From assembly GCF_008520305.1 (NCBI RefSeq), contig NZ_ML703264.1:85966-149965 (forward strand): a DNA stretch of 64,000 nucleotides, in the 5' to 3' direction. The notes beneath the pieces were generated by a model that made no database searches, was not told the origin of the DNA, and was given only the letters and a program-made list of their open reading frames with translations. The position numbers were made by a program, and so were the translations under genes. Positions 7,189 through 59,192 of this stretch are shown here, piece by piece. The stretch comes from Mesorhizobium sp. SARCC-RB16n (GTDB taxonomy: Bacteria; Pseudomonadota; Alphaproteobacteria; Rhizobiales; Rhizobiaceae). Position 1 is the first letter of the stretch. Every line of letters begins with the position of its first letter.

Positions 7189-7195
7189 CCCGGGC

Positions 7196-18612: not shown

Positions 18613-18640
18613 CTGGTGCTGCGAGAGAGGATTGAACTCT
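18613..18640. repeat. Left attachment-site repeat of the island
   Basis: 28 bases identical to 59117-59144. The right copy is the 3' end (CCA end and 3' half of the T arm) of an intact tRNA-Thr gene; this left copy is only the fragment. Identity stops at 18641 (G against C at 59145) and at 18612 (T against A at 59116). This is the direct repeat left when an integrase recombines into a tRNA 3' end. Confidence 0.92.
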
Positions 18641-18924: not shown

Positions 18925-21900
18925 TTATCGCGCTCCGTCGGGCGCCATGAGAGCATCATTGATCACTTCTGCCAAATCGTTTCCGACTCGCTGAAATCCC
19001 AAGAGCCGCGCTACCGCGCGGGTTAGGTCCTCGGGCGGCATGCCCCCACTTTCCGAACGAATTCGCTGAGCTGCGGCGGCTATTTCCATGGGTGGGAGAT
19101 AGGCGGCCTTAAGCAGACTGCCGGTTTCGGCACAGCGGTCCCGGATGGGCGGGTTTTGGGCTTGGTCAGATGTTAAAAGGAATGATCCTGTCCATCTCAC
19201 CGCGTGGTCTCTCTGCGTAGCGAGACGGGCGGCCCGCCCGGCCGTTTCGACGATACGATTGCCGGCCCGCGATTTGCCGAAAGCAGAAGTAATGCGCCGC
19301 GCCACCTCGTCGATGTGGATCGGGCCTTCGATCCCGACGATTTTCACAACTAGGTCCGCAAGCTGGGCAATGGGAGCCTCGTGCGGCTCAAGGCTGGACC
19401 GCACGGAAAGCTCGGCGCGGACATAGGCCGGGGCCGTCAAGGTAAGGTGGGCGATTTCGACCGATTGGTCCGCAATTTCCTGCTCCAGCGGAGCTGGCCG
19501 GAAAGCCCCGTGATTTGCACCACGCACGCGAATGCCGTCCTCAACCGTCAGCCTCGCCTGGTCAAGTGCTGCGGACAGCCGTTGCATCTCGCGGACACGA
19601 TGATGGAACCAGTCGGTGCTCCAGATGCGATGGAAACCCCAGCCGAGGTTCTCCAGGACATCCTGACGCAAACGATCACGCTCACGTGCCCACAGGGCGG
19701 CATGGTAGGTGGCACCATCGCACTCCACCGCCAACAGATACTGCCCCGGACGATCGGGATGACGCACACCAAGGTCGATCCGGAACCCAGCCGTCCCGAC
19801 CTGTGCATCAGCCAGATAGCCGAGTGAGCGGATTGCCGCGGCTACATCTTCCTCGAACGGGCTGTCGGCATCGAGGGCGCTGGCCACGCGCTCCTCCATG
19901 ATTCCGGTCTTGGCAAAGTCGAGGAAGCGTTTCAGAACCCGCGGACCTTCACGTTTGCTGCGCGTTGGGTCGATATGACCTGGGTCGAAGGAGGCGAAGA
20001 CTTCGCAGCGAACTCTCGCACGGGAGAAGAGGACGTTTAACCGCCGTTCACCACCTTCGCCATTCACTGGTCCGAAAGACATAGAAGCGAGCGGACCGTT
20101 GGGCTCCTGCGGTCCATAGCCCACTGAGATCAGGATGACATCGCGCTCGTCACCCTGCACGTTTTCGATGTTTTTGACGAACACATCCTCATGTCGTCCC
20201 TCGCGCAGGAAGCCATCCAGCACAGGATCGTGACGGCGCTCGAGTTCGAGCAGCTCAGTCAACATGTCGGCCTGCGCCTTTGAGAAGGCGACGACTCCGA
20301 GAGAAAGGTCGGGCCATGCTCGAGCGTGTTCCGCCATCCCTCGCACGAGGGCTTGTGCCTCGATCCGATTGGTGCCCTGGCGGCCAAGTCCGCTGCCACC
20401 GCGTGCGTATACGCCTGGAACGCGTCGAAACTTCAATCCGTAGTCATCGTCGAGTTGCAGCGGTGATGGTGGCAGAACAAGGTTATCACCGTAGAATTCG
20501 GCATTCGACACCCTGATCAACGATGGATCGCGCGACCGATAGTGCCATTCCAACATTCGCGAACGGAGGCCACGTGCCTCACACAGCGACAGGATGCTTT
20601 CCATGTCAGCTGCGGTGGCGCCGAGCGGCGCATCCTCGTCCTCGTCCTCAATATCTTCAACATCGTCGACCAAACGGTCGAAGAACGAAGTCGGGGGTAG
20701 TTGCTTCTGGTCGCCCACCACCACGATCTGACGGGCTCGGGCGACGACGCCCAAGGCATCTTCGGGGCGAATCTGGGATGCTTCATCAATCACCAGAAGG
20801 TCGACGGTCACACTGTTGGGCGGCAGGAACTGGGCGACCGAAATCGGACTCATCAGCATTACCGGCTTGATGCGTTGCACCATGCTACCCGCATTCTTCA
20901 TCACCCAGCGGATAGGTTTATGGCCACGCTTGCGTCCGATTTCGCCGCGGATGATACCCATCTCTCCCATCGTGCCGCGCGGCATCTGCTCGAAATGGCG
21001 TGACAAGATCAGGGTCTTGGCGGTCTCAATGCGATCTTTCTCCAGCTTGCCGAAAAGATGCACGAGGTCGTGCCGATCGAGCTGAGGTAGCATGTTCAAT
21101 TGAGGTCGTGCGGCACGTGCCGCGTTCCAGCGGTCCTCTGCGCAGGCATAGGCAAACTCGCGTTCGGCTTCGTGGGACGCGAGACGTTCCTCGTCGACCG
21201 CGTTGACGATCGCCCCGGCTCCATTGCCGAATACCGCGGTGATGCTGCGCGCAAGTGCCGCCCAGTTCCCATAACGTCCGGTGTCCGCCGCCATCTGGGC
21301 AAAAGCGCTGGCCAGTTCAGGCAGCGGAGCCGTTTCGAGCGAATCGCCGATTCCTGCTTGCGCAAGATCAAGCCGCAATCGGAAAATCGGTGCCCGCAAA
21401 CTGGCGCTGCAAGCCTCGATGCGGGCCCTTAGGTCGCGCGCAGTGCCGCGCGGATCGGGAAATGCGGCAAGCGCTTCCGTAACGTGAGCTGCCTCGGTAA
21501 CGGCCCCCGACTGCTTGATCCCTGCCAACCATTCGCTGATGGCGAGCAGGGCCGCGAAAGGTGTGCGCTCACCGCGCCACTCGGCGCCAAGGGCCGTCTC
21601 CAGCCAACCTTCTTCCTCGGCCAGGCGTTTGCGTCGATTCTGGACTTCCGCCAGTTCGTCGACCAGCGCCAGTCGCTCTGCGGGTGCTTTAGGCAGCGAG
21701 CCTGATAGAAGGCTCGCCAATTCACCGGAAGCGCGGCGATAGGAACCAAAAAGTCGCGCAAAGAAGGAGTTTTGGCCGCGCACGATTGCCTGCCGCACCG
21801 CGCCGATACTGGCGTTCCAAGCCGGAGTTGCAAACTTTCCTGCTGCGGTAGCTTGAGCCGCCGCCCAGTCTGCACCAGCCCGCAACGCTTCGGCCTGCCG

Positions 21901-23625
21901 GGGTTGGTTCGCATTCGGAAACAGCGAAACTACTGATGCCGCTGCCCCAGAGGGGGCCGATCCGAACGCCTCGATCCCTGCGCTAATAGCCGAGATCTCG
22001 GCCAGGGTGCGCGGTTTCGGTTGGTGAAGTGTCTGCACAAGGTGCGCCGACGCGCTGCAGAGCTCCGAGATCGCGTTCGTCGCTGCGGCCAATTCGTTCC
22101 CAAGGCGCACCAAATCAGTGGGTTGCAGATCGAGATCCATGGTTCCCCGGAATGGATGCGCTTCAGACGGCCCCGCCGTTTCCAGCGCCGCGACGAAACT
22201 GGATATCGCCGCCAGCGCGCGCTGGCGTTCCTCCCGTGTCAGAGTCCCCAAACCTTCCTCGGAAATCGAGGGTGCCTTTGCCCCCTGACCGATGAAGCCA
22301 ATGATTTCCGAGATTGCGCGGAAGGGGCTTTCGTTGCTCGGCGGAAGAGGTGTGTGCAACAGCGCCGTGATCCGGTTCAGCTCGTCACGGGTGAGGCGAA
22401 GCTGGGCGGGATCGGCGGCCCCCGGCAAAGCACGCGCACTGGCCATGAGCGTTCGGCCGAGTTCCTGCGCCAGGGCCTTCTTGTTGGCCGTGCGCGAGTG
22501 CAGTTCAAGGCAGATGTCGCGCAGTCCTGCCTTTACCAGACGGTCATGCACAACCGAAAGCGCAGCCATCTTCTCGGCGACGAAAAGCACTGACTTTCCA
22601 TCGTAAGCCGCCGCTGCGATGATGTTGGTAATGGTCTGGGACTTGCCAGTTCCTGGTGGTCCTTGCACCACCAGGCTTGCGCCTCTCCGGACCTCTTCGA
22701 TCACCTTGGTCTGCGAGGCGTCGGCGTCGATCACCTGGATGATTTGCGACGGATCGAGGTGGTCGTCGAGCTTGTCCTCGGGTCCAAAGAGCGGTGTATC
22801 GGCCTCGAACCCCTCGGCCAGAAGCCCGGCAAGCAAGTCATTGTCGGAGAGCGTGCCATCCGGCCAATTCGCCTGGTCGAGGTCACGGTGCATAAGTAGC
22901 TTGGCGAAGGAGAAGAAGCCGATCTGCATGCCGTCGGCATCGATTGACCAGCCCGATTGTGCTGAAACCGTTTCGGCCACGAGCGCGAAATACTGCGACG
23001 GGCTCCAGCCTTCGATCTCATCGATCTCCGGCAGGACGATCCCGAAATCCTGCCTCAGCCGCTCCTGCAGGGGAAGGTTCGTGGTGATATCATCGTCGCG
23101 AGACAAGATATCGAAGGTCGAGGTCCGCTCGTTCCGCACCAGTTGCACCGGCAGGAGGACCAGCGGCGCCTCACGCTGGATCTCGGATGTCGGGCTCTCG
23201 CGCCAACGCAGGAAGCCCATGGCCAGATAGAGGATGTTGAGACCCTGTTCTTCTTCCGCCGACTTTGCATCATGAGCCAGTCGCAGGAGACGCCGCGCCA
23301 GCGCTTCCGGTCCAAGGGGCGTCTCGATGAAATTGTCGCCATACCTTTCGGAACCGGCTTCGCGATCATCGTCGGACGAGGCGAGCAGCATTTCCTGCCC
23401 TTCCTCCACCTTGTCCTTCCCCATCGCCTTGAAGCGCATCCGCTTACCCTGAAGGCGCAGGAGTGCGAAAATGTCGTCCGAGCGTTCGTTGATCGCATTC
23501 AGGCAATTCGCGCGCTGATTGGCCCGATTGACGTGGATCAGCCGGTTTCGCGTTCCGGTTTCGAGGAGCTTGCGCCTCGCCGCCTCCAGAACTTTGGAAA
23601 TCGCCTTTGTGTTGACTTCAAGCAT
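18925..23625 (-). CDS. DUF4011-SF1 helicase-PD-(D/E)XK-DUF3320 defence-type protein
   Basis: A 1566-aa multidomain protein. The N-terminus (about 10-60, AARRKLLETGTRNRLIHV) is DUF4011. An SF1 helicase follows, with Walker A GPPGTGKS at 322-329, a long insert, then motif II LLVIDEASQI and VVGDQKQLPP. The region near 1250-1330 is a VSR/MTES_1575-like nuclease with FEEDVAAAIRSLGY, RIDLGV, ECDGATYH and a WSTDWF ending. The last 200 residues hold DUF3320. Such proteins are common single-gene members of defence islands; from memory, a relative named Hhe is reported as antiphage. The longest frame starts at GTG 23685, but ATG 23625 fits the family N-terminus. It is transcribed toward the island's left end, divergent from the WYL operon. 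Confidence 0.85.
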   Translation of the reverse strand: MLEVNTKAISKVLEAARRKLLETGTRNRLIHVNRANQRANCLNAINERSDDIFALLRLQGKRMRFKAMGKDKVEEGQEMLLASSDDDREAGSERYGDNFIETPLGPEALARRLLRLAHDAKSAEEEQGLNILYLAMGFLRWRESPTSEIQREAPLVLLPVQLVRNERTSTFDILSRDDDITTNLPLQERLRQDFGIVLPEIDEIEGWSPSQYFALVAETVSAQSGWSIDADGMQIGFFSFAKLLMHRDLDQANWPDGTLSDNDLLAGLLAEGFEADTPLFGPEDKLDDHLDPSQIIQVIDADASQTKVIEEVRRGASLVVQGPPGTGKSQTITNIIAAAAYDGKSVLFVAEKMAALSVVHDRLVKAGLRDICLELHSRTANKKALAQELGRTLMASARALPGAADPAQLRLTRDELNRITALLHTPLPPSNESPFRAISEIIGFIGQGAKAPSISEEGLGTLTREERQRALAAISSFVAALETAGPSEAHPFRGTMDLDLQPTDLVRLGNELAAATNAISELCSASAHLVQTLHQPKPRTLAEISAISAGIEAFGSAPSGAAASVVSLFPNANQPRQAEALRAGADWAAAQATAAGKFATPAWNASIGAVRQAIVRGQNSFFARLFGSYRRASGELASLLSGSLPKAPAERLALVDELAEVQNRRKRLAEEEGWLETALGAEWRGERTPFAALLAISEWLAGIKQSGAVTEAAHVTEALAAFPDPRGTARDLRARIEACSASLRAPIFRLRLDLAQAGIGDSLETAPLPELASAFAQMAADTGRYGNWAALARSITAVFGNGAGAIVNAVDEERLASHEAEREFAYACAEDRWNAARAARPQLNMLPQLDRHDLVHLFGKLEKDRIETAKTLILSRHFEQMPRGTMGEMGIIRGEIGRKRGHKPIRWVMKNAGSMVQRIKPVMLMSPISVAQFLPPNSVTVDLLVIDEASQIRPEDALGVVARARQIVVVGDQKQLPPTSFFDRLVDDVEDIEDEDEDAPLGATAADMESILSLCEARGLRSRMLEWHYRSRDPSLIRVSNAEFYGDNLVLPPSPLQLDDDYGLKFRRVPGVYARGGSGLGRQGTNRIEAQALVRGMAEHARAWPDLSLGVVAFSKAQADMLTELLELERRHDPVLDGFLREGRHEDVFVKNIENVQGDERDVILISVGYGPQEPNGPLASMSFGPVNGEGGERRLNVLFSRARVRCEVFASFDPGHIDPTRSKREGPRVLKRFLDFAKTGIMEERVASALDADSPFEEDVAAAIRSLGYLADAQVGTAGFRIDLGVRHPDRPGQYLLAVECDGATYHAALWARERDRLRQDVLENLGWGFHRIWSTDWFHHRVREMQRLSAALDQARLTVEDGIRVRGANHGAFRPAPLEQEIADQSVEIAHLTLTAPAYVRAELSVRSSLEPHEAPIAQLADLVVKIVGIEGPIHIDEVARRITSAFGKSRAGNRIVETAGRAARLATQRDHAVRWTGSFLLTSDQAQNPPIRDRCAETGSLLKAAYLPPMEIAAAAQRIRSESGGMPPEDLTRAVARLLGFQRVGNDLAEVINDALMAPDGAR

Positions 23626-24223
23626 TTGTCTGATCGCGAAATTCAGAATTGCGGATCGAAACAAATCCGGCCCCGGCAGCAGCACAGTTGCCGTCGCACT
23701 TCGCGCGCATCATTAAGGCGTTGACCATCCCAAGCCCCTTTTTCTTTTTGTCTGATCTAGACTAGGTTGTTGCCGCTGTTGGAATCAAGAGTTTGCAAGA
23801 ATGATCACAGGTGAATTGCGTTCAAAAAGCGATACTTTCTAGGAGGCGGCATCGCGAATTTGTTCGAGGTGATCAAGCAGATAACTTTACCCGCTGTTTA
23901 TGCGCGGGCTGGACGAGGCCGAGCAACATGAGTTTGGCGGTGATTGGTTCATATTTTTGAGCCGTCAGCCATTCTTGATAGTCGTTTCGCACCGGAAGCC
24001 CCTCGGGTGGCAGAAAATTTGACCTCACTGGCCCGCACTTACGTCCCCAAAGCCGCTAAAGACAGACTCGAAATCCATAGTCCAAGTGCTGCGAAGAAAA
24101 ATTCTCTGGGGATAACAGTGGTCGCGCTGCTGTTTGAAGCACGATCTGCCTGTGTATTGTAGAACGGCCGATTCTCGTCACCCGTTGGGCTATTCGAGCA
24201 TTGGGTCTGTTGTTGGAAACACC
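23626..24223. other. Divergent intergenic region between the DUF4011 gene and the WYL operon
   Basis: About 600 bases with no supported gene; small plus-strand ORFs lack domains. It is AT-richer than its surroundings and must contain the promoters of the two divergent units. A short dyad, CTAGACTAG, lies near 23757-23765. The WYL protein may bind in this region, but no clear operator can be assigned by eye. Confidence 0.4.
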
Positions 24224-25201
24224 ATGTCCTATTCCAAGGCAAACGAGCTTCTCAGACTGGCTGATTTCGCTTGCTCAAGGTTCCGCGGCGTCACGCTTAC
24301 AGATATTTGTGAGCATTTCGAGGTAAGCCATCGAACTGCGCAGCGCATGACCTCAGCGCTCTCCGAGGCATTTCCACACGCTGTAGATGTCGTCGAAGAT
24401 CAAACGAGAGAACGGCGCTGGATTGTTCGCGAGATCCCACTTGCTAGATTGCGGCTCTCCGGGGATGAGGAGCTCGAGGGGCTCGAATTCGCCATTTCTC
24501 GCCTTCGCGAAAGCGGTGATTCAAGGCAGGCTCGCGCTTTGGCGAGTCTTCGTGATCGTCTTCTGGCAGCGCTGCCGGTCACGGAGGCACGGCGCGCGGA
24601 AGCTGATGCGGAAGCGATGCTGGAAGTTCATGGAGTTGCCGCAAGGCCTGGGCCATTCGTTGCCGTTGCCCAGGCCGTTACAGACGCAGTGACCGAAGCG
24701 CTTCGCGGACCATACAAGCTTCGCTTCAGCTACAATGACAGTCTCCGTGTTGTCGAACCTTACGGCGTTCTTCTCGGAGCACGGCGCTACCTCGTCGGTA
24801 GGCAGCCTGACAAAGGACTGAAGCTTCGGCATTTCCGCTTTGACCGAATTAGAGCAGTTGAAGTGACCGACGAATGGTTTGCGCGAGACTTCGATTTTGA
24901 TCTTGCAGCGCATGCAGCGCGAGCGTTCGGATCATTCCAAGACGATAGCCAGTTCGGTGAGGTCGTGTGGCGCTTCGCTCCTGAAGCGGCCGATCGCGCT
25001 GCGGAATGGCGCTTTCATCCTAACCAACGAGTGCGCGTAACTGAAGATGGCGCACTTGAAGTGCGGTTCGAGGCCTCTGGCTGGCTTGAGATGGCCTGGC
25101 ACCTTTACCAATGGGGGGACACTGTCCAGGTCATCAAACCCAAAGAGCTTGCAGATATCGTTCACGCCGCCCGGAGGGATGATTTTGATGCACTCCCCTG
25201 A
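24224..25201 (+). CDS. WYL-domain transcriptional regulator
   Basis: A 325-aa regulator. A winged helix-turn-helix (about residues 5-65, including CEHFEVSHRTAQRMTSAL) is followed by a WYL domain (about 155-225, with KLRFSYNDSLRVVEPYGVLL, RRYLVGRQPD and the HFRFDRI strand) and a WCX-type C-terminal dimerisation segment. WYL proteins sense nucleic acid or nucleotide ligands and often control defence operons such as BREX or CBASS. It sits immediately upstream of and collinear with the SbcCD-like genes, 149 bases before the next start, so it is the likely regulator of that operon. ATG 24224 gives the normal N-terminus; an in-frame start at 24134 is less likely. Confidence 0.88.
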   Translation: MSYSKANELLRLADFACSRFRGVTLTDICEHFEVSHRTAQRMTSALSEAFPHAVDVVEDQTRERRWIVREIPLARLRLSGDEELEGLEFAISRLRESGDSRQARALASLRDRLLAALPVTEARRAEADAEAMLEVHGVAARPGPFVAVAQAVTDAVTEALRGPYKLRFSYNDSLRVVEPYGVLLGARRYLVGRQPDKGLKLRHFRFDRIRAVEVTDEWFARDFDFDLAAHAARAFGSFQDDSQFGEVVWRFAPEAADRAAEWRFHPNQRVRVTEDGALEVRFEASGWLEMAWHLYQWGDTVQVIKPKELADIVHAARRDDFDALP

Positions 25202-25350
25202 TTGATGTTCACACTTTGTTCGATAATTCAACCTTTCAACGTTCGCGATCACTCCTCTGCATGACAGCTTCTGACACCCTCGCATGATAGCTCATTTGAA
25301 TTCGGATCGCACTGTTGGGTCCGCCTCAATCTGGCTCTGGTGATCTTCAC

Positions 25351-26478
25351 ATGTTTCGTTTTATTCATTCGTCCGATCTGCACCTCGGTCGCAGGTTCGG
25401 CAACCTTCCGGAAGACGCGCGCGGTCGCCTGGTAGAGGCGAGGCACGCGGCGATAGGACGTCTGGCCGCTTCCGCACAAGATCACGGCGCAAGCCACGTG
25501 ATGCTTGCTGGAGACGTTTTTGACACGGAAACGCCGTCCGACGCCGTTTGGCGTCACGCTTTGGCTGCGATGAGTTCCGTGCAAAGCCTTCAATGGTGGA
25601 TTCTCCCTGGAAATCACGACAGCCTGGCGGCTGAGGCACTCTGGGGTCGCGTCCGCGCCCACGCCCCCGCGAACGTTCATCTTCTTGATGCGCCGGAACC
25701 AATCGAGATCGCGCCGCGGGTGGTTGTCCTGCCCGCTCCGGTGCCTCGCCGCTTTCCCGGCCGCGACCTGACTGAGTGGATGCCCCTTTGCGCTACTCCT
25801 GAGGACTACCTCCGGATTGGGCTTGCACATGGCGGAGTCCTTACATTTGGGTCCGAGGACGGCGGCGCCGAAATTATCCCCCCCGATCGTGCCAAGTCTG
25901 CTCGGCTCGACTACCTAGCGCTTGGTGATTGGCACGGACTGAAGCAGTTCGGCGATCGCACCTTCTACTCTGGCACGCCTGAGCGCGATCGATTCAAGCA
26001 CGGCGGCCCCGGCACTTGCCTCGCTGTTACTCTCCTGGCTCCGGGCGCGGTGCCGGAGGTCAACACCATTCAGACCGGTCAGTTCGACTGGCAGGAAGCA
26101 CCACTTCCACTCACACCTGCACAAGATGCAGTAGCTGCCCTGGAGATGCTGTTGCCGGCCGAAGGCAAGGCGAGGCGGGACATGCTTCTCAGAATTCGAG
26201 CCACCGGTTGGCTGGGCCTGCCAGCGCGCATGGCGCTGACACGTGCAGCAGAGCTTGCAAAGCCCGAGTTCTGGCATTTCGAATTCGACGATGCAGATCT
26301 CGCGACCGAATGCAGCCTGGAGGATCTCGACGGAATTGCGTTGAACGGCGCACTTCGGTTGGCAGCTGAAGGGCTCCATCAGAGGTCTGAAGACGCGGCA
26401 ACGCCCCCCACGGATCGGGTGATCGCCGCGGCGGCACTTAGGCGCCTTTACAACTATGTGCAGGGAGAGACGCAATGA
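25351..26478 (+). CDS. Mre11/SbcD-like DNA repair exonuclease
   Basis: A 375-aa calcineurin-like metallophosphoesterase. Metal-binding motifs are intact: SSDLHLG (Asp9, His11), LAGDVFDTE (Asp55), LPGNHDS (Asn88, His89) and the later HGG and GDWHG. This is the Mre11/SbcD layout, normally an Mn2+-dependent DNA end and hairpin nuclease working with a Rad50/SbcC ATPase. The next gene encodes such an ATPase and overlaps by ATGA (26475-26478). The sequence is too far from the housekeeping SbcD type to be called sbcD; I infer a specialised defence or repair version. Start ATG 25351 places the first motif at residue 7, as expected. Confidence 0.88.
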   Translation: MFRFIHSSDLHLGRRFGNLPEDARGRLVEARHAAIGRLAASAQDHGASHVMLAGDVFDTETPSDAVWRHALAAMSSVQSLQWWILPGNHDSLAAEALWGRVRAHAPANVHLLDAPEPIEIAPRVVVLPAPVPRRFPGRDLTEWMPLCATPEDYLRIGLAHGGVLTFGSEDGGAEIIPPDRAKSARLDYLALGDWHGLKQFGDRTFYSGTPERDRFKHGGPGTCLAVTLLAPGAVPEVNTIQTGQFDWQEAPLPLTPAQDAVAALEMLLPAEGKARRDMLLRIRATGWLGLPARMALTRAAELAKPEFWHFEFDDADLATECSLEDLDGIALNGALRLAAEGLHQRSEDAATPPTDRVIAAAALRRLYNYVQGETQ

Positions 26479-29090
26479 AGCTCCTCGCGATACGCCTCGA
26501 TAATGTCCGACGGTTCACCGACCCTGTTGAGATCACGGGTATCGGAACCGGGCTGAACGTCCTTTCGGCCCCGAATGAGAGCGGCAAGTCGACCATCGTT
26601 GATGCGCTCCACGCGCTCTTTTTCAAAGGCTACAGGTCTTGGGACAAAGAGGTCGCGAGTCTTGCGCCGCATTCCGGCGGTGATCCTCAAGTGGCGGTCG
26701 AAATTGAGATTAACGACAACCGCTTCAAGGTGGAAAAACGTTGGAGCAAGACGCGCAAGGGCGAAGCCAAGGTCTTCCGCGGCGGGCACCTGATCAAGCA
26801 GGCGGACGATGCCGAGACATGGCTCGCCGAGGTGCTGAAAGCGCCGAAGGAAGGGGGGCCGGCCGGTCTCCTCTGGGTGCGACAGGGCTTGACCAGTCTC
26901 GACGAAGGCGAATCCGCCCACTCAGCACGGCGCGACTTGCTCTCTTCAGTCACCGGCGAGGTCGAAGCAATGACTGGCGGGCGTCGCATGGACGCGACGC
27001 GGGACCGTTGTCGGAGGGAACTTGACCGCTACTTGACCAGCAGCGGAAAAGCGAGAGTTGGCGGCCCACTAAAGTCCACGGAAGACGAGGTCTCGGCTCT
27101 CGATCTCCGACGCGATGGGCTTGCCGCCAAGGCGGCGTCTCTATGGGCGGAACTTGATCGCCGGCGCAATCTAAGGCGCGAACTCGCCAGTCTTGAAGAC
27201 GGCGAGCAGGATTCGGGAAGGATGACGCGGCTCGCAGAGGCGGAGGCCGCCCATGACGAGGCATCCCGTCATGCAGAAGCACTTGAGCGAGCGATCGAAG
27301 CAGAAAGATCGAAAAGCCTTGAGATGGAACGAGCCCAGGAGAGGCTTGCGACAATCGAGGCCGCGCTTGCTGAAGAACGGAGTGCCGGAGCTGCCCTTGA
27401 GTTGGCCAAGGCTGACGCCGCAATCAAGGACGAGCGGCACCGCCAAGCTGAGGGTGTATTCATCGAGGCGAGAAGGAGTTTCGACAAGGCGTTCTCATCT
27501 GCCGAGACTGCCTCTGAAATCCTTCGAAGGGCACTACGTGCTCAGACATGCGCTGCGACAGCAGAGCGGCGAGCGGAGCTTACGCTTCGACTGGCCCAAG
27601 CCGAAGGCTTGCGGACCGAGCTTGAGAAAGCCGTAGCGGACGCCAAGGTTGGCCTCACAGACAAGGTGCTGCGTCAATTGGAGGACCGGGTTGGAGAGGT
27701 CCGGGTTCTACGAAAGGCACGCGAGATAGAGGCCGTCGCTCTCACGATGAAGTATGCCGTTGGGCGGAAAGATGGTGTCGCGCTCAACGGTAAGCCGATG
27801 CCCAATGGAAATCGTGTCGCAATACCCGATGGCGCCACGCTGGAGATTGACGGCATTGGACACCTAACGGTCCATCCCGGTGCACAGTCTGCCGCCGATA
27901 CACTTGCGGTAGCCGAGAAAGCTCTTGCCGACGCACTTGAAGCGTCTGGCTACGAGACTATGGAGACCGCTCGAGCAGCCGCGCATCTCCGTCTCGAGGC
28001 CGAAGCTCGATACCGGAGTGCCGAGCACCAGTTAAACGGGGCGGCGCCGCATGGAATCGAAGCCCTGCGGGAAAGTATCGCGCGCCTGCCTGAACCCGTG
28101 GAGACGGAACCCGAACTTCCGAGCGCAAGAGAGGCTCAGGAGGCCGAGGTAGCAGCAAAACACGCTCTTGCAGAAGCAACCAGCACACTTGAGAAAGCCC
28201 GCTGTGCGTTCCAAATAGCGCAGACGGCCGCGGCCCGTGTTGCCGCAGCCGCAGAAAGCGCAGCGGAGAGGGTCTCCAGGGCGCTCTCCGCAGTCAGCGG
28301 CCTCCAAGATGCCGAGGCCGAAAAGACGCGCCTTATGAACGAGCTTCTTGTGCATCGGGCCGCGTTGGCCGAAGCGATTGGACAGCGCCAAGCAATCTTG
28401 GCCGTGGCGCCTGATCTTGAAGCGGCGAAGGCTGCATTACAACGTGCACGATCGGTCATCACACGCGCCGAACAGGACCGCCAACGCATTTGCGTTGATC
28501 TCGGAAAGTTGGATACGGCGATCGAGATGCATGCTGCGGAGGCCGTCGAGGAAGAGCTGGCCGACGTCGAGATCCGACTGAAAGCAGCGAGGCGCAGACT
28601 TGATGAGATCATGTTCGAGGTCTCAGTCCTGCAGATAGTGGACGAGGCACTTGAATCCGCCAGAACTGCTGCACGAGACCGCTACGTTGAGCCCGTCCTG
28701 CGGGAGCTTACACCACTCATCCGACTGCTCTGGCCCGAGGCTGAGCTTCGCTTCGATGCCGAGAAAGTCCTGCCGACGGCTCTGGTTCGAGCCGGAACGG
28801 AGGAAGACTTTGACATCCTGTCAGGCGGCACCAAGGAGCAGATAGCGCTTCTCGTGCGGCTGGCCTTTGCTCGAATGCTAGCGAAGGCAGGTAATCCCGC
28901 GCCAGTGATTCTCGATGATGCGATCGTTTACACCGACGACGACCGCATCGAGCGTATCTTCGACGCCTTGACGCGACAGGCACAAGATCTGCAGATCATT
29001 GTGTTTTCATGCCGACAGAGAGCCTTCCGAGATCTTGGAGGTCGGGGCCTCGCAATTATCGGCCAGGAATCTGTATTGGATGCCGCGTAA
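26475..29090 (+). CDS. Rad50/SbcC-like coiled-coil ATPase
   Basis: An 871-aa SMC-like ABC ATPase. Walker A APNESGKST is at residues 32-40. Long Ala/Glu/Arg-rich coiled-coil arms run from about 190 to 370 and 490 to 740, and the C-terminal lobe carries the signature LSGGTKEQIALLVRLAFARM and Walker B PVILDDAIVYTDDDR. No zinc-hook CxxC is visible at the arm apex; instead a compact region (KYAVGRKDGVALNGKPMPNG, about 420-460) separates the arms, as in YhaN-type ATPases. It overlaps the nuclease gene by four bases and the next gene by one (TAATG), so a complex with both neighbours is likely. It would hold DNA ends and gate the nuclease. Confidence 0.88.
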   Translation: MKLLAIRLDNVRRFTDPVEITGIGTGLNVLSAPNESGKSTIVDALHALFFKGYRSWDKEVASLAPHSGGDPQVAVEIEINDNRFKVEKRWSKTRKGEAKVFRGGHLIKQADDAETWLAEVLKAPKEGGPAGLLWVRQGLTSLDEGESAHSARRDLLSSVTGEVEAMTGGRRMDATRDRCRRELDRYLTSSGKARVGGPLKSTEDEVSALDLRRDGLAAKAASLWAELDRRRNLRRELASLEDGEQDSGRMTRLAEAEAAHDEASRHAEALERAIEAERSKSLEMERAQERLATIEAALAEERSAGAALELAKADAAIKDERHRQAEGVFIEARRSFDKAFSSAETASEILRRALRAQTCAATAERRAELTLRLAQAEGLRTELEKAVADAKVGLTDKVLRQLEDRVGEVRVLRKAREIEAVALTMKYAVGRKDGVALNGKPMPNGNRVAIPDGATLEIDGIGHLTVHPGAQSAADTLAVAEKALADALEASGYETMETARAAAHLRLEAEARYRSAEHQLNGAAPHGIEALRESIARLPEPVETEPELPSAREAQEAEVAAKHALAEATSTLEKARCAFQIAQTAAARVAAAAESAAERVSRALSAVSGLQDAEAEKTRLMNELLVHRAALAEAIGQRQAILAVAPDLEAAKAALQRARSVITRAEQDRQRICVDLGKLDTAIEMHAAEAVEEELADVEIRLKAARRRLDEIMFEVSVLQIVDEALESARTAARDRYVEPVLRELTPLIRLLWPEAELRFDAEKVLPTALVRAGTEEDFDILSGGTKEQIALLVRLAFARMLAKAGNPAPVILDDAIVYTDDDRIERIFDALTRQAQDLQIIVFSCRQRAFRDLGGRGLAIIGQESVLDAA

Positions 29091-32000
29091 TGAGACGCGA
29101 CCGCAACGGGCTTCGCCTATCGGCCTCGGACTTGATGCGATTCATGGCCTGCTCGCACGCAGCACGCTTAGACCTCGCACATCTTGCAGGCGAGGGCCCG
29201 AAGCCGGCGGTTGACAGTGAAGACGCGGCCCTACTTCAAAGATATGGCGATGCGCACGAAGCGGCCCATCTGGCGCGGCTCGAAGGAAGCGGAAAGAGCA
29301 TTACCAAGATTCAAAAGGATGGGATCGCCTTTGATGATGCTGTCGAAGCCACTCTCGACGCGCTTCGAACTGGCCCGGACATTGTTTTCCAGGGAGCGCT
29401 CGAAGGAGGCATGTGGGGCGGATACTCCGATTTCCTCGAGCGGGTTGATTTGCCCTCGAAACTCGGGGGATTTTCTTACGAGGTTACAGACACCAAGCTG
29501 AAGCGCAAACCTGCCCCGGCTCATGTCTTGCAACTCGTCCTTTATTCCGACCTGCTAGCAACTGCCCAGGGCCGTAGTCCAGAACATGCACATGTGGAGC
29601 TTGGTGACGGCAAGCGTTTCAGTTTCCGTCTCGCTGAATACGCTGCGTATGCTCGCGCGGCGCGGGAGAGGCTCGAGTCTTTCGTAGTCGAACCAACGAA
29701 GACCCGGCCTGTGCCTTGCGCGACTTGTAGCCTCTGCCGATGGCGCGAACACTGCGCGGAAGAGTGGGAGCAAGAGGACAGCCTTTTTCGCGTTGCCGGC
29801 ATGACAAGAGCTCAAGTCGAAAAGCTTGAGGCCACCGGCATCACAACGATGGCCAATCTCGCCCAACAACGCGGCCGCGTGCCGAAAATGGCCGAGGCGA
29901 CACTTGAGAAGCTCAGGACTCAGGCAGCACTGCAGCATGAGCGAAAGACTGGCGAACCGACCTATGCGCTGCGGCCTCCCCTTCCCGGCAAAGGCTTCGA
30001 CCTGATGCCCCGGCCACATCCGGGCGATCTTTACTACGACATTGAAGGTGACCCGTTTTATGCTGAAACCAACACCGAGGGCCTCGAATACCTACACGGG
30101 GTCTGGGATGGGAAGGCTTTCAAAGCGTTCTGGGCTCATGATTTTGCGGAGGAGAAGGAGGCGATTGTCGCCCTTTTTGCCCTCTTCGAACAGAGGATAG
30201 CGCAGAACCCGCAAGCTCATATCTACCACTACGCATCGTATGAAATCAGCGCTCTTCGCAAGCTCGCCACTCGGCATGGCGTCGGCGAAGCGCAACTCGA
30301 CCGGTGGCTGAGGGAGCGCCGTTTCATCGACCTCTATGCCGTTGTTCGGGGAGGCGTCTACGCATCTGAGCCATCCTATTCAATCAAGGACATGGAGGCT
30401 TTCTACGATCTTTCGCGCACAGGCGAGGTGACGACTGCAGGTGGATCCGTTGTCGCTTACGAGAAGTGGCGTGAAAGCCATGACGCCGCAATCTTGGACG
30501 AGATCGAGGACTACAATCGCATCGACTGCGTCTCGACGGAGCGGCTGCGCGATTGGCTACTCGCAATCCGGCCGGAAGGGCGCTGGCTGGAAGTCGGCGA
30601 AGGCCACACCGAGAAGTCAGTGGAGGCAGAAACCGAGGTTGACGACCTCACCGAGTTGCTGCTCGAATCCACTCTGCCCGAGGACCGTCGGCGGCTCTTG
30701 TATGACCTCGGCGTTTTCCATTGGCGCGAGCGCAAACCTGCTGCGTGGGCTGTCTTCGACGCCGCTGCGAAGGATTTCGACGAGCTCTGCGATGATATGG
30801 AATGCCTTGGCGGCCTCGTCGCTGACGGGCCGCAACGGCCGGTAAAGAGGTCGTATGAGCGAGATTACCGATACCCGCCGCAGGAGACGAAGCTCAGGCC
30901 TGGCAAATCCTCGCAGTTTGCTCTCGAAGGCGGTTTCGGACAGGTCGGCATCACATCGCTTGACCGGGGTGCTCGCCGGGTAACGCTGAAAATGGGGCCT
31001 AGCTCCGGCGAGACGCTCCCGGACCGTCTTGACCTTATTCCAACCTTCGCACGAGATGCCAAACCAATTCCCTCCGCAGTTCGCAAGGTTATCGGAGACC
31101 AATGCGGAAAGCGCACGAACAAGGCGGCCGAGGATCTCCTCTCACGCAATCCGCCGCGCTTCAAAAGTGTATCACCGCTTCCCCTGAATGAGGCGGCAGA
31201 TCCCCTCCGAGGGACCATAGCAGCCATTCGGGCGATGGATGCGACCGTCCTGCCAGTCCAGGGCCCGCCCGGCACAGGCAAAACCTATGTCGCCGCGCGT
31301 GCCATCTTGGCACTCGTCAAGGACGGCCATCGTGTCGCCGTCACATCCAATAGCCACGAAGCCATCCGCAACGTCCTTATAGCCTGCGTAGATGCGCTTC
31401 GGGATGACGCCGACGTTGGCCTGACACTTGCGCAGGTCCAGTTCGCCCACAAGATTGGGGCCGACACTGGCGAGGCACCGGTTGGTTACGAGGCCATCGC
31501 CAGCGTGAGGAACAACGACGATTCTGCACTTGAAACAGCACAGGTAGTCGGCGGGACGGCCTGGCTGCTTTCGAGAGGCCAACTTGAAGGTGCATTCGAA
31601 TACCTCTTTGTCGATGAGGCTGGGCAGGTTTCCCTCGCAAATGCGGTCGCAATGTCGAATGCGGCTAAGAATCTTGTTCTTGTTGGTGACCCGCGCCAAC
31701 TTCCTCAGGTGATTCAGGGAGCGCATCCTGATCCGGCAAATCTCTCCTGCCTCGAGTGGGTTCTAGGCGAAGGGCAGAACGTTGCGCCGGACCGGGGGAT
31801 TTTTCTTCCTGTCACTCGTCGCATGCATCCCGATCTCTGCAGCTTCATTTCATCGCAGTTCTACGAAGGTCGGCTGCATCCACACGAAACGACATCGCGG
31901 CAAGCAATCCATTCATTGGGGCTGCCGATTGCCGGCGCATGGCGGATTCCGGTAACCCACCAAGGGCGCGCGCAGGAATGTCCTGAAGAGGTCATTGCAA

Positions 32001-32422
32001 TCCGTGAGAAGATTGACCTTCTGCTTGCCGGAAAATGGACCAACAGTGACGGTTTGGTGCGCACGCTACGGAAGGACGATATCATCGTTGTCGCTCCTTA
32101 CAACGCGCAGGTGAACGCTCTGGTCGAAGCTTTGCCCGACATCAGAGCAGGAACCGTCGATAAGTTTCAGGGGCAGGAAGCTCCAGTTGCCATTGTCTCA
32201 ATGACTGTGTCTTCAGCGGAAGAAACATCACGGGGCATCGAGTTCCTTTTTTCCCGCGAGCGGCTCAATGTCGCCGTTAGTCGCGGCAAGGCCCTGAGCC
32301 TCGTATTTTTTTCGCCTCGACTTCTGCAAACCTCGTGTTCGACGGTCGAGCAGATTCGTCTCGTGAACACGCTCTGCGCACTTCCCGATATGCCTGCGGA
32401 ATACGATGAACGGACGGAATGA
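29090..32422 (+). CDS. TM0106-family RecB-like nuclease / SF1 helicase
   Basis: An 1110-aa three-part enzyme. Residues 1-230 form a RecB/Cas4-like PD-(D/E)XK nuclease: Asp114, DTK at 134-136 and the QLVLY helix at 148-152, with Cys21 plus Cys210, 213, 216 and 222 placed as in Fe-S-cluster nucleases. The middle (from LYYDIEGDPFY, about 320-500) is an RNase H-like TM0106 domain ending in YNRIDCVST. The C-terminus is an SF1 helicase with VQGPPGTGKTYVAARA, YLFVDEAGQ, LVGDPRQLPQV, FQGQEAPVAIVS and RLNVAVSRGKAL. The ATG shares an A with the previous stop. Combined with the Mre11/Rad50 pair, it suggests a DNA-processing machine, probably anti-invader. Confidence 0.88.
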   Translation: MRRDRNGLRLSASDLMRFMACSHAARLDLAHLAGEGPKPAVDSEDAALLQRYGDAHEAAHLARLEGSGKSITKIQKDGIAFDDAVEATLDALRTGPDIVFQGALEGGMWGGYSDFLERVDLPSKLGGFSYEVTDTKLKRKPAPAHVLQLVLYSDLLATAQGRSPEHAHVELGDGKRFSFRLAEYAAYARAARERLESFVVEPTKTRPVPCATCSLCRWREHCAEEWEQEDSLFRVAGMTRAQVEKLEATGITTMANLAQQRGRVPKMAEATLEKLRTQAALQHERKTGEPTYALRPPLPGKGFDLMPRPHPGDLYYDIEGDPFYAETNTEGLEYLHGVWDGKAFKAFWAHDFAEEKEAIVALFALFEQRIAQNPQAHIYHYASYEISALRKLATRHGVGEAQLDRWLRERRFIDLYAVVRGGVYASEPSYSIKDMEAFYDLSRTGEVTTAGGSVVAYEKWRESHDAAILDEIEDYNRIDCVSTERLRDWLLAIRPEGRWLEVGEGHTEKSVEAETEVDDLTELLLESTLPEDRRRLLYDLGVFHWRERKPAAWAVFDAAAKDFDELCDDMECLGGLVADGPQRPVKRSYERDYRYPPQETKLRPGKSSQFALEGGFGQVGITSLDRGARRVTLKMGPSSGETLPDRLDLIPTFARDAKPIPSAVRKVIGDQCGKRTNKAAEDLLSRNPPRFKSVSPLPLNEAADPLRGTIAAIRAMDATVLPVQGPPGTGKTYVAARAILALVKDGHRVAVTSNSHEAIRNVLIACVDALRDDADVGLTLAQVQFAHKIGADTGEAPVGYEAIASVRNNDDSALETAQVVGGTAWLLSRGQLEGAFEYLFVDEAGQVSLANAVAMSNAAKNLVLVGDPRQLPQVIQGAHPDPANLSCLEWVLGEGQNVAPDRGIFLPVTRRMHPDLCSFISSQFYEGRLHPHETTSRQAIHSLGLPIAGAWRIPVTHQGRAQECPEEVIAIREKIDLLLAGKWTNSDGLVRTLRKDDIIVVAPYNAQVNALVEALPDIRAGTVDKFQGQEAPVAIVSMTVSSAEETSRGIEFLFSRERLNVAVSRGKALSLVFFSPRLLQTSCSTVEQIRLVNTLCALPDMPAEYDERTE

Positions 32423-32426
32423 ACCG

Positions 32427-33110
32427 ATGAAGGACAACGCGGCAGCTCGGCTTAAATTCGAGGCGCTCAAGGAAAAGCAGCGTCAACTTCGGGCGGGTTT
32501 CCCCGAGAATTTCGGGCTTCGCGTCCATCGGTCGATCAGTTGGATTGGACGGGCTGAAGCCGAAGCCAACGATCCTGCTGCCGCGTTCCTCTTCCTCTGG
32601 ATCGCATTTAACGCGGCCTACGCGGACGAGCGCGACGTGCGAGGTGAACGTGAAGCGTTCGCATGGTTCTTCGGAATGCTTCGCGACCTCGACAAAGACC
32701 GCCGCATCTATGACGCGGTCTGGACACGCTTTCCCGGCCCTATCCGCTTGTTTCTAGAGAATTGCTTCGTCTTTGGTCCGTTTTGGTCCCATCAGAACGG
32801 GATCGATGGCTACGACGATTGGGAGCAACGATTCAATGCCGCCAGGCGCGCCTTCCACGGCGCCCTTATGGCCCGCGATACCGCCAACATCCTGTCGATG
32901 CTGTTCGACCGCCTCTATGTGCTCCGCAACCAGCTTGTCCACGGGGGTGCAACTTGGAACTCGAGCACCAACCGCAACCAACTTCGTGACGGCGCGGACA
33001 TCCTCGGGTTTCTCATTCCGATCATGATCGACGTCATGATGGACAACTCCGGCGAGGATTGGGGACGACCATTCTATCCAGTTGTAGAGAACTCGACCGT
33101 GTTGCGCTGA
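32427..33110 (+). CDS. HEPN-domain protein, candidate RNase effector
   Basis: A 227-aa helical protein ending the operon, four bases after the previous stop. The segment VLRNQLVHGG contains the HEPN catalytic pattern R-x4-H (Arg167, His172), followed by helices typical of HEPN/Apea-like proteins. HEPN proteins are metal-independent RNases in many abortive-infection and toxin systems, although some are inactive adaptors. I infer an RNA-cutting effector controlled by the DNA-sensing genes upstream. An in-frame ATG at 32406 would overlap the previous gene by 17 bases; ATG 32427 follows a GGACGGA-like site. No further gene lies on this strand for 250 bases. Confidence 0.72.
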   Translation: MKDNAAARLKFEALKEKQRQLRAGFPENFGLRVHRSISWIGRAEAEANDPAAAFLFLWIAFNAAYADERDVRGEREAFAWFFGMLRDLDKDRRIYDAVWTRFPGPIRLFLENCFVFGPFWSHQNGIDGYDDWEQRFNAARRAFHGALMARDTANILSMLFDRLYVLRNQLVHGGATWNSSTNRNQLRDGADILGFLIPIMIDVMMDNSGEDWGRPFYPVVENSTVLR

Positions 33111-34536: not shown

Positions 34537-37500
34537 CTACGAGCTGGCGTCCACTTCGGTGGGTCGGCGCAACCCTAAAGCTGACAGATCAAGCGCGAGC
34601 GGCTGAAGGTGATCCAGGGCCGCTTTGCCGCTCCTGGTCAAGATATCTAGGAAGTCCTCCTGGTTGGGCTGCCCAAGGGCCAATCGGTAGATGAACCTTT
34701 GTTCGCGCAATGCAGCGAAACGGCTGACGTCTCGGCCGAAAGGGCGCTCGAATATGTAGCGGGTTATCTCTGCACCGTCGAAGATCCACCACGGGCGAAG
34801 CCCGGACCAGTCGCTGTGGTCAGCGTCAGCGATAGCAGCCAACCGAAGCCAGGGCGACCTGCGATCCTCCCCGTTCCACAGCATCGGCTCGATCTCCCGA
34901 GCTAGCCCGCGGCGCACAGCAAGGCCTGCATAGCGTTGAATGCGTCCTTCCCGTTGTTCCAGATCCAGCGGATTGGACGAGAGATCCCAATGCGCAACTC
35001 GTGAGCACCATGGGTGGAAGTCCAATCCCTCCTGGCCGACAGAGGTCGTGACCAGCACGTGGGGCCAAAACGGAGTGTTGAAACTCCTTCGCACCTCGTC
35101 CGGGCGGACAGGCGTCCGATCCTCCTCACCGGGTTCGGCTGCAGCGGCTTCCGAGTCGCCAAAAGGCACCGCGACGTGACAGCGAAACCTGATACGGTCG
35201 CCCCCGCCGATAGGGTGGAAATTGAAGCCGCCAGCCACTAGAGTCAGGGTAGCGCGTAGGTCGTCTGCCATGCCCTGAGCCGTGGACAAGCTCTGGGACT
35301 GGATCCAGAAATGCTCGTCCAGAACGCTTTCAAGATTGCCGTCCCAAGCGGCCCTCATAACGCCCTCGACACTGCTAGCGCCGCCCAGCGCCGCGAGCAT
35401 CACTGGATTATCGAGGTAAGCCCGAAGGCCCTGCCAGCACAGCCTGACTAGTGCTTGATAACCATCACCAAGTGCGCCGCCGGCATGGCGGAGAAGCGCC
35501 CGTCCAGCGATGACGCCCGGCGCTGACAAGGCATATTCAGCAAGGTCGGCCAGTTCTAGTGGCGAGATGGAGGTGAGAGCTGGGGTGGCCCTCCAGGCCT
35601 CTATGGCCAACTTTGCCTTCGCATCGGCGCCGACGACTCTTTCCCACGCGTCCGCCGAGGTCTCCGCTGTCCCGACCCGCTTCTCAAGGGCGGGCAAGAG
35701 ACGTCCAATCGGCTGGTGTCGTCGGCGCGCCTTTGCCGTCCCACGATCCACATGGATAGCCGGTCTCAATTCCCTTAGCGCTTTAGCAATTTGCTCTCGC
35801 ATGCGGCGCCGCACGTTCGCGAGACTCGCGCCAACTCCGGCGACCGCCAAAGGATCGGTGTTTCGGATCAGCCACGGCGACGGATGGAAGGCAGCCATGA
35901 CCGGATTTGGAGTGTCCGACAGCTTTAGCCTGCGCCGTTTGACATATATCCCATAGCCCCCGCGGTCTCCCTTCAGCCACCGCGACTCCACACCGAAGCT
36001 CAACAAGGCCGCAACGCTTGGGGGCGTCGCCTTAAACCGACTGAACATAAGTAGCTTCGGATCAGCCCCCTCCCCGGCCCAGCCGCCCTGAAGGGGCCAC
36101 CAAGCGAGAGACGGTGCTACCCAAGGCATTGCGAGTTGCTCTGGAGGTGCGGCCGCACCTAGTGCTCGGAGCTTGGCGTCGGGCCAATCGGCCGGCGCGT
36201 CCAGCTTGCGCTTCATAGTCTCGTTGACTGTCACGAGGCCCTTCATTGGCTTGAACTCGCGCCCGCGCCAAGCTGCATACCCCACGCCCAGGGACTGGGC
36301 CGGCAGGGGCACGGATGACCAATACGCCAAGGCCTCGCTGCGCTGCTTGTCGTCGAACGAACCAACAAGATGTCTATAGGCAGTTACATCCATAGTTGAC
36401 AGGGGTGCGCGCAGCGGTGTTGTGCCCGTATCAATGCGGTTCAGTGCCAGTCCACCCACCCGCTCAGTGCGAGCCATTACGGGCTCAAGCAACGCCTTCA
36501 GCTGATCGCGCAGCCCGGCCGCCTTGCGGACGCCGGCCTCCATTGCAGCGGCATCGCCGTCTCCCGAAGAAACGATCTCATGTAATGCCTCGCCGAAAGA
36601 CCCAAACAACCTTTCCGACTCGCCGCGCAGGTCTGCTCCGGCGAGGAACTCGATGAGATCGAATAGTTCCTTGTGCGCTTGGGCGCCCCGGCTCTCCTCC
36701 CATCGCGTCGCGAATAGTTTGTAGGGCGTCGCGGACAGGAACAGCAGGGCCGGCCCGCGCCGGCCCGACGCCAGAAGCGCCTTCACCAGCGGATTTGCCT
36801 GGCCGCCTTTGTCTAGGATGTGCCGATAGCGCTGGAACTCGTCGAAGATGACGATGTCCGGCGGCTGGTGCCGCAGGCTGGCAAGGGCGAGCGCCCGTCG
36901 AAGCCGCCCGATGAAGGCGCGTGGCGGCTTCCCCTGTATATGGGCGCGCATTGTGGCGGACACAGGCGCCTCGAACTCATCGGCGAGGGCCTCGCGAAAA
37001 CGGGCGAGCAGGCCTACGGGCGCGGCCTCCAGCCTTTCCCGCGCGCGCTCAAGGGCACCTGCCCAGCCCGAAGTGGCATCAAGTCGCATGTAATCAGAAC
37101 CCATCGCCCTCCACGCCGATGGAAAAGCCTTCTCCATCAGCAAGGAGATGTAGGCGCGCTCGCCGATGCGCCCGCCCGTAAGAGCCGAGCCCACTCTCGG
37201 AAACGAAGTATGCGGTGTCAGGGCGTAAACCACGACCGGGGTCGTTGGAGGGGCGAGAACCGCGATTAGGGATAGGCGGTCTGGAGTATCGATCGCCCGC
37301 TTCCGCTCCGCTTCCGGCAAGAACTCAACCACACGGGTCTTGTTCTGGGTAGCGACCGAAGTCCCGTTCGAGACGTAGAATACGACGAGTGGCTTACTCT
37401 TCCGCTTAGCCAACCGTCCGACGATCTCGCGCGCAACCACGGTCTTGCCCAAGCCGACCTCGTCCGCGACTAGGAAACGCCTGAGTCCGGTTTTGGAGGA

Positions 37501-59025: not shown

Positions 59026-59117
59026 CGCTTTTGCCCATTTTGTTACGAGATTTGTAACGTCAGTATGGACAGAACCCCTTGCTGGTCAAGGCATTGAGCA
59101 GTTTCAATGGGATAGAC

Positions 59118-59192
<75 letters not shown>

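Follow-up and report, generated by a model that had tools for sequence, protein, structure and literature searches.

A WYL-led operon of Mre11-Rad50-like, TM0106-family and HEPN-candidate proteins in Mesorhizobium: a possible modular defence system

Introduction

The locus considered here lies in a stretch of 64,000 nucleotides from Mesorhizobium sp. SARCC-RB16n (contig NZ_ML703264.1, positions 85,966 to 149,965), hereafter the window, and consists of five genes encoding a WYL-domain regulator, a Mre11-like nuclease, a Rad50-like ATPase, a TM0106-family protein and a candidate HEPN RNase. The question that it raises is whether these genes form an unnamed defence system, as an earlier sequence-only reading had proposed, or whether they are better explained by DNA repair, by the chance company of island genes or by a larger unit of which they are a part. 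The answer reached is that a WYL-controlled modular defence system stands at about even chances, a reading drawn from the domains, the intact active-site residues, the recurrent linkage, an Mre11 link that was repeatedly gained or lost, the motif shared beside the WYL gene and the position on a mobile defence island.

Recurrence and modularity of the operon

All five reading frames are intact at the coordinates first given and densely packed, and the four genes behind the WYL gene are joined as had been described, by an ATGA overlap (Mre11/Rad50), by TAATG (Rad50/TM0106) and across a gap of 4 bases (TM0106/HEPN); the WYL gene itself is separated from mre11 by 149 bases, that is, by no tight junction. 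A chance arrangement is excluded because the set recurs in other genomes: WYL, Mre11, Rad50-like and TM0106 genes occur together, in several gene orders, in the window and in 14 other loci. Nine of these (L020, L023, L028, L040, L041, L045, L055, L059 and L072) belong to the best 80 of the 428 stretches confirmed in one genome_contigs scan with the TM0106 alignment; two (L009 and L013, the ATPase of L013 being of the AAA_27 type) are among the 10 TM0106 plasmid loci read, the plasmid neighbourhoods read being 16, hand-picked from longer match lists; and three (L186, L187 and L188) come from Rhodobacterales genomes. The proposal of an unnamed, recurrent, WYL-led and probably defensive operon with the domains assigned to it is supported.

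The order WYL-Mre11-Rad50-TM0106-HEPN-McrB-McrC is found on a single strand in L020 and L186, and L187 differs from it in having HEPN upstream on the other strand. HEPN is divergent in L072, and L059 has a shortened TM0106 gene with no HEPN found. TM0106-Mre11-Rad50 is accompanied by a divergent WYL gene in L009, L023, L040, L041, L045, L055 and L188; in L013 and L028, Mre11-Rad50 lies behind WYL, with TM0106 divergent. A further locus, L189, carries WYL, TM0106, HEPN and a shortened Mre11, with no Rad50 detected; on its contig (G315:C16, also L144), one TM0106 copy, next to WYL, HEPN and Mre11, is interrupted by an internal stop codon and is probably decaying.

Among the best 80 of the 428 loci, profiles detect WYL in 48, HEPN in 26, McrC in 19, Mre11 in 9 and a Sacsin-NOV protein (Sacsin plus NOV_C domains) in 7, and, with many contigs ending inside the neighbourhood, the absences are upper bounds of true absence. 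WYL with TM0106 is the commonest core and the system is modular, since other loci have McrBC or Sacsin-NOV in place of Mre11-Rad50, and a TIR gene lies beside WYL or TM0106, with no HEPN found, in L012 (identical to L037), L062 (near-identical to L065) and L071. The fixed gene set of the sequence-only reading is thereby replaced by a variable one with at least three DNA modules, Mre11-Rad50 among them, and with TIR sometimes in the place of HEPN. That the DNA modules are strict alternatives was also rejected, because combinations occur: a second module (McrC or Sacsin-NOV) is present in three of the nine genome_contigs loci with Mre11, as well as in L013, L186 and L187. In L012, the TIR gene (6801-7502) follows WYL, the place of HEPN in other loci, and is preceded by a second site of the motif described below. 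In L021 (2167-9791, the same region as L197), a set of OmpA, EH_Signature and SNF2 helicase genes, which we take to resemble a Zorya operon, runs into a same-strand TM0106-HEPN-McrBC arrangement.

The 341 Rhodobacterales genomes contain TM0106 at 29 places, Mre11 at 65 and HEPN at 30. Within 15 kb of TM0106, Mre11 is found at 5 of the 29 places (0.047 expected), HEPN at 17 (0.022 expected) and both at 4; the expected counts assume 4.0 Mb per genome, and per genome the top candidates were scored (5 for Mre11, 2 for TM0106, 8 for HEPN), so that extra copies can be missed. These neighbour counts reversed an early reading, taken from L003 and L004, in which HEPN was unlinked. They also bear on the possibility that WYL-HEPN, Mre11-Rad50 and TM0106 are independent units brought together by island traffic, which would be in line with the 60 of 65 Mre11 places without TM0106 within 15 kb, with the 12 of 29 TM0106 places without HEPN at that distance (some at contig edges) and with the unrelated neighbours of HEPN in L003 and L004; yet the start-stop overlaps, the co-linear operon in several genomes and a shared motif before the lead gene of each arrangement speak against such independence, which is judged improbable.

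Conserved features of the proteins

The TM0106-family protein scores 253.9 bits with TIGR03491 (cut-off 97.45) and is composed of a Cas4/Dna2-type nuclease (residues ~3-264), a DEDD 3'-5' exonuclease (310-490) and a UPF1/DNA2-type superfamily 1 (SF1) helicase (~700-1071). The nuclease has a PD-(D/E)XK core, four conserved cluster Cys and a Cas4-like fold, as seen in an AlphaFold2 (AF2) model of residues 1-490 and a fold search; the exonuclease, of the polymerase-proofreading type, has the DxE, D and YxxxD motifs and the fold in the AF2 model; and the helicase part matches DNA2, UPF1 and SMUBP-2 by sequence. The catalytic and cluster Cys residues are invariant, with Asp134 and Lys136 kept in 32 of 32 rows. 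The earlier description as an Fe-S-like nuclease, an RNase H-like domain and an SF1 helicase is right as to the three domains, the first two being better named Cas4/Dna2-type nuclease and DEDD 3'-5' exonuclease. A literature search for TM0106 by name brought up two papers, both on corrosion.

The Mre11-like protein stays below the cut-off of the SbcD profile TIGR00619 (49.2 bits, cut-off 77.65), and the Mre11 profile finds SbcD 4lty at E 8.7e-15. Asp9 is kept in 13 of 13 rows and His11 in 12, with Gln in the remaining one, and the metal motifs are intact save one, the GHIH of SbcD being replaced by GDWH in all 13 rows. The partner ATPase has the Walker A motif NESGKST, the signature LSGGTKEQ and the Walker B motif ILDDA; a CxxC zinc hook was looked for in 24 Rad50-like ATPases and found in none, for which reason canonical SbcCD was rejected. 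The assignment to a Mre11/Rad50-type pair consequently holds for the calcineurin nuclease and the ATPase motifs and not for a canonical SbcC, and the pair is SbcCD-like.

For the 227-residue protein, the HEPN label is probable and the weakest of the labels. The Arg167-x4-His172 motif is invariant in 24 of 24 rows, as it is in a 15-row set, and the model is all-helical (pLDDT 86.3), so that an R-x4-6-H motif is found in an all-helical domain; all three residue pairs picked out in the sequence-only reading (Asp9/His11, Asp134/Lys136 and Arg167/His172) are therefore conserved to the extent given. Among its relatives, 15 of the 25 on plasmids are annotated 'HEPN domain-containing protein' and 16 of 24 match PF18735 (HEPN_RiboL-PSP) weakly, at E 1 or better, the best at E 0.038. 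The window protein has no match in Pfam or NCBIfam, and a profile of this candidate gave 0 matches among solved structures.

A candidate operator beside the WYL gene

Sites resembling TGACAGNTTYTGWCACCC are common to the WYL-mre11 gaps of the window (25262-25279, TGACAGCTTCTGACACCC), L020, L059, L072, L186, L187 and L192. The window site, the sole match there, proves little when taken alone, because 0.16 matches with at most one mismatch were expected and 12 of 100 shuffles had one. Across 2.17 Mb of loci, scanned on both strands at the same stringency, 42 matches were obtained vs 6 in the reversed sequence; read by eye, 28 of the 42 fall in a gap flanking WYL, 5 closely follow TM0106 and 9 are located in other places. 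A matrix derived from 19 WYL-flanking sites that had been identified beforehand finds a site within the 250-base flank of 57 of the 65 WYL genes, and of 35 of the 42 genes held out from its construction, and the same score is reached in 1.2% of 2,100 random windows drawn from the same loci, that is, about 2.5% per gene by chance with two flanks for each, related loci not being independent.

The site is located 5' of mre11 in the window-type order and in the divergent WYL/TM0106 gap elsewhere, and L013 and L028 have one on both sides of WYL. Because the shared motif precedes the lead gene in each arrangement, Mre11-Rad50 and TM0106 may form a single regulon, and both the binding of the WYL protein to the motif and the sign of regulation are predictions made from sequence. 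Inverted repeats were looked for in two WYL-flanking gaps and none was found, and a scan with the sigma-70 consensus gave 1 site vs a shuffled mean of 2.6, that site (25261-25288) overlapping the motif. A second similar stretch, resembling GTTCACACTTTGTTC, was seen by eye just 3' of the WYL stop codon in the window (25202-25240) and in L072, L187 and L192. Extra motif sites occur soon after TM0106 in L063, L064, L071 and L091 (at 13324 in each) and in L066 (at 13364), where they precede or fall within small, partly conserved open frames.

Phylogenetic distribution

In the TM0106 tree, built from 90 of 91 rows (one being too short), the window row is placed inside a 56-row clade with 100% support. 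One or more of the three DNA modules are present in 27 of the 50 main-clade members (49 loci from the tree plus the fragment L082 outside it) vs 4 of 30 loci outside the clade (Fisher p 3e-4; best 80 of 428). In the Mre11 tree of 48 rows, which is without the short duplicates of refetched loci, the truncated L189 Mre11 and 31 of the 65 Rhodobacterales Mre11 places, explaining the TM0106-linked label takes 8 changes, of which supported branches force 4 or more, and the branches of L013 and L009/L040/L041 are very long. On this tree, the Mre11 link has undergone several gains or losses, across deeply different Mre11 lineages.

Mre11-Rad50 and a Dna2-type nuclease-helicase are the resection pair of eukaryotes, which counts for a damage-inducible DNA repair operon, a bacterial counterpart of that resection which would work for the host or for the mobile element and not in immunity. 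Repair would agree with the deeper position in the TM0106 tree of WYL-TM0106 loci without other partners, with the location of L016 near dinB, imuA and an error-prone polymerase, and with the occurrence of some Mre11-Rad50 pairs among ordinary genes (L008). Nevertheless, TM0106 is patchy (28 of the 341 Rhodobacterales genomes), plasmid-borne and island-borne, and its company of McrBC, Sacsin-NOV, HEPN, TIR and, once, Abi_2 is a defence pattern and not that of core repair, so that repair is considered an unlikely explanation.

Comparison with known systems

No name for this gene set was found in PADLOC 2023, NCBIfam of June 2026, Pfam or the searched literature, a coverage in which newer DefenseFinder models, bioRxiv as a whole and most subscription journals were outside the scope; within it, the expectation that this is not an already named system is borne out. 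The ingredients are of known kinds, and their combination, the modular make-up and the motif were found to be undescribed in the literature covered.

The pair resembles Mre11-Rad50/SbcCD in its calcineurin-like nuclease adjoining a coiled-coil ABC ATPase with overlapping genes, and YhaO-YhaN is presumably a further close relative. The operon differs from SbcCD in lacking the zinc hook, in having GDWH instead of the GHIH of SbcD, in being led by WYL and in its association with a nuclease-helicase, and its Walker B motif reads LDD, unlike the usual LDE. The TM0106 protein shares with eukaryotic Dna2 and Cas4 a Cas4-type PD-(D/E)XK nuclease with four Cys and a DNA2/UPF1-type SF1 helicase, but it has an extra DEDD 3'-5' exonuclease between the two, and it is bacterial, mobile and situated beside WYL. 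With Mokosh the likeness is in the SF1 helicase domain: comparing best stretches alone, MkoA (E 2.2e-41) aligns residues 810-1069 of the TM0106 protein with profile positions 763-1069, or 307 of 1112, and the best stretch for MkoC is 901-1088.

CoCoNuT type IV restriction, as presented in the part of PMC11090510 considered, likewise combines a UPF1-like SF1 helicase, McrBC and HEPN in one system, and the words 'Mre11' and 'RecB' are absent from the main text of that paper. The loci described here differ in having a helicase with two nuclease domains and Mre11-Rad50 as an alternative, and in the McrB signature, which is NTAD or NAAD (NxxD) in 25 of 25 rows of related loci (two pairs being duplicates; the window operon has no McrB) instead of NxD, and on this signature membership was rejected. 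In Lamassu (LmuABC), a Rad50-like ATPase is similarly combined with a nuclease effector, and hairpin or end sensing has been proposed, according to the part of PMC10586767 considered. In the present operon, LmuB profiles match weakly (E 5.9e-10) and there is a dedicated Mre11 partner; LmuA and LmuC had no PADLOC match among the five proteins, and Lamassu was rejected on that account.

Genomic context

The operon lies inside a 40.5-kb element at tRNA-Thr, bounded by a perfect 28-bp direct repeat (Table 1), whose cargo also includes PDC-S37, ZacA-ZacB-ZacC (the Azaca system), a type III restriction-modification pair and a DrmD-like SNF2 protein. Relatives are found on plasmids as well (25 records for HEPN, 119 for Mre11 and 47 for TM0106), and phage records gave no TM0106 match at E 1e-30.

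Table 1. Positions in the window of the operon, its predicted operator and features of the surrounding element
Feature	Coordinates	Strand	Evidence or remark
Attachment-site repeat, 28 bp, perfect	18613..18640		Identical to 59117-59144
PDC-S37 / ProA-like DUF4011-SF1-MTES_1575-DUF3320 protein, diverging from the operon	18925..23685	-	PADLOC PDC-S37 1806.8 bits; NF058533 1300.5 bits, below cut-off 1500
WYL-domain transcription regulator, 325 aa (WYL + WCX, weak N-terminal helix-turn-helix, HTH)	24224..25201	+	PF13280 and PF25583 above cut-off; HTH_23 below cut-off; PADLOC WYL
Predicted WYL operator, TGACAGCTTCTGACACCC	25262..25279	+	71 bases 5' of mre11 start; motif comparison and matrix scan
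Mre11/SbcD-like nuclease, 375 aa, GDWH in place of GHxH	25351..26478	+	PF00149 Metallophos above cut-off; TIGR00619 below cut-off; SbcD 4lty match
Rad50-like coiled-coil ATPase, 871 aa, without zinc hook	26475..29090	+	AAA_23 and SMC_N above cut-off; ATPase motifs
TM0106-family protein, 1110 aa	29090..32422	+	TIGR03491, RNase_H_2 PF13482, AAA_11 PF13086, AAA_12 PF13087, all above cut-off; AF2 model of 1-490; catalytic and Cys residues
HEPN RNase candidate, 227 aa, R-x4-H motif at 167-172	32427..33110	+	Conserved motif; all-helical model
ZacC-ZacB-ZacA, separate system on the same island	34537..40573	-	PADLOC
Probable tyrosine integrase of the element	57451..59025	-	Phage_integrase and Phage_int_M matches, each below cut-off
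Attachment-site repeat, 3' end of tRNA-Thr	59117..59144		Identical to 18613-18640

The divergent PDC-S37/ProA-like helicase-nuclease raises the possibility that the functional unit includes it and that the operon regulates it and acts as its processing arm. In Rhizobium (L006), ProA, Mre11 and Rad50 are three contiguous genes, and TM0106 has a ProA-like gene nearby in L072 and L190; against this, a ProA-like gene is near TM0106 in just 1 of the best 80 genome_contigs loci, PDC-S37 is a stand-alone model in PADLOC, and the motif was not found before PDC-S37 in the window (best flank score 9.2, below threshold), so that a unit of this kind is regarded as very unlikely. On Rhizobium/Sinorhizobium plasmids (L005 and L006), a ProA-like gene is followed directly by related Mre11 and Rad50 genes.

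Discussion

Several results weigh against a WYL-controlled defence system built on this gene set. The smallest supported clade of the window TM0106 protein comprises L017, L018, L019, L024 and L056, which have no WYL, Mre11, Rad50 or HEPN (L018 being at a contig edge), and those inspected have unrelated genes nearby, for example one for a DEAD-box helicase, one of the TsaD family or one with DUF4268; the next nearest row by path length is L072, where the complete set is present. L192 (45-5761) combines WYL-Mre11-Rad50 with a HEPN remnant and, behind it, a NOV_C gene; its motif site is strong and TM0106 is missing, and the locus may either have lost TM0106 or represent a system of a second type. 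Eight of the 65 WYL genes have a weak motif or none, and one of these, in L188, has a match at 8385, outside the gene limits used. Co-conservation of neighbours, named as a check in the sequence-only reading, is observed around TM0106 in Rhodobacterales for both Mre11 and HEPN and fails for Mre11 in Hyphomicrobiales, where, by eye, 0 of 18 TM0106 places in 297 genomes are on a contig with an A2-type Mre11; after the counts in the two orders, Mre11-Rad50 was dropped as an obligate part. In addition, a structure search with the HEPN candidate did not confirm the HEPN fold.

In a WYL-controlled defence system, which we regard as the likeliest reading, complex formation, the substrate, DNA-end sensing, RNA cutting and antiphage or antiplasmid activity would be as follows. 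The WYL protein would bind the predicted operator and keep the mre11-rad50-TM0106-HEPN operon repressed until invasion or damage is signalled; the Mre11-Rad50-type pair would then engage and open the invader's DNA ends, whether free, hairpin or blocked, and the Cas4/Dna2-like nuclease-exonuclease-helicase would load at the opened ends, unwind the DNA and destroy it. If this destruction failed or stalled, the HEPN protein, as a back-up, would cut RNA and stop the cell. A common role of the DNA modules as sensor or loader fits, because each consists of an ATPase and a nuclease part (ABC ATPase/Mre11, McrB/McrC, GHKL-type Sacsin/NOV_C); a parallel between the paraMORC GHKL and SbcC/Rad50 ATPases, as well as the HEPN back-up logic, is drawn in the part of PMC3710099 considered. 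Somewhat short of even chances, and hence tentatively, the system may be an immune version of eukaryotic Mre11-Rad50/Dna2 resection, in which a shared 18-bp operator governs one WYL-regulated Cas4-exonuclease-helicase core and its plug-in parts: as sensors Mre11-Rad50, McrBC and Sacsin-NOV, alone or in combination, and as suicide effectors a HEPN RNase or TIR, a single destroyer thus working for several sensors and last-resort outputs.

If the defence reading is true, Alphaproteobacteria would gain an unnamed defence system, relatives of whose TM0106 protein are scattered through other phyla (among the best 80 of 428), and its plug-in design would place a common nuclease-helicase core behind type IV, Mre11-Rad50 and GHKL-type modules that are separate in other respects. 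The motif common to these loci offers a sequence handle for finding members of the system and the inducing signal, and the use of a eukaryote-like Mre11-Rad50/Dna2 partnership in bacterial immunity would become testable.

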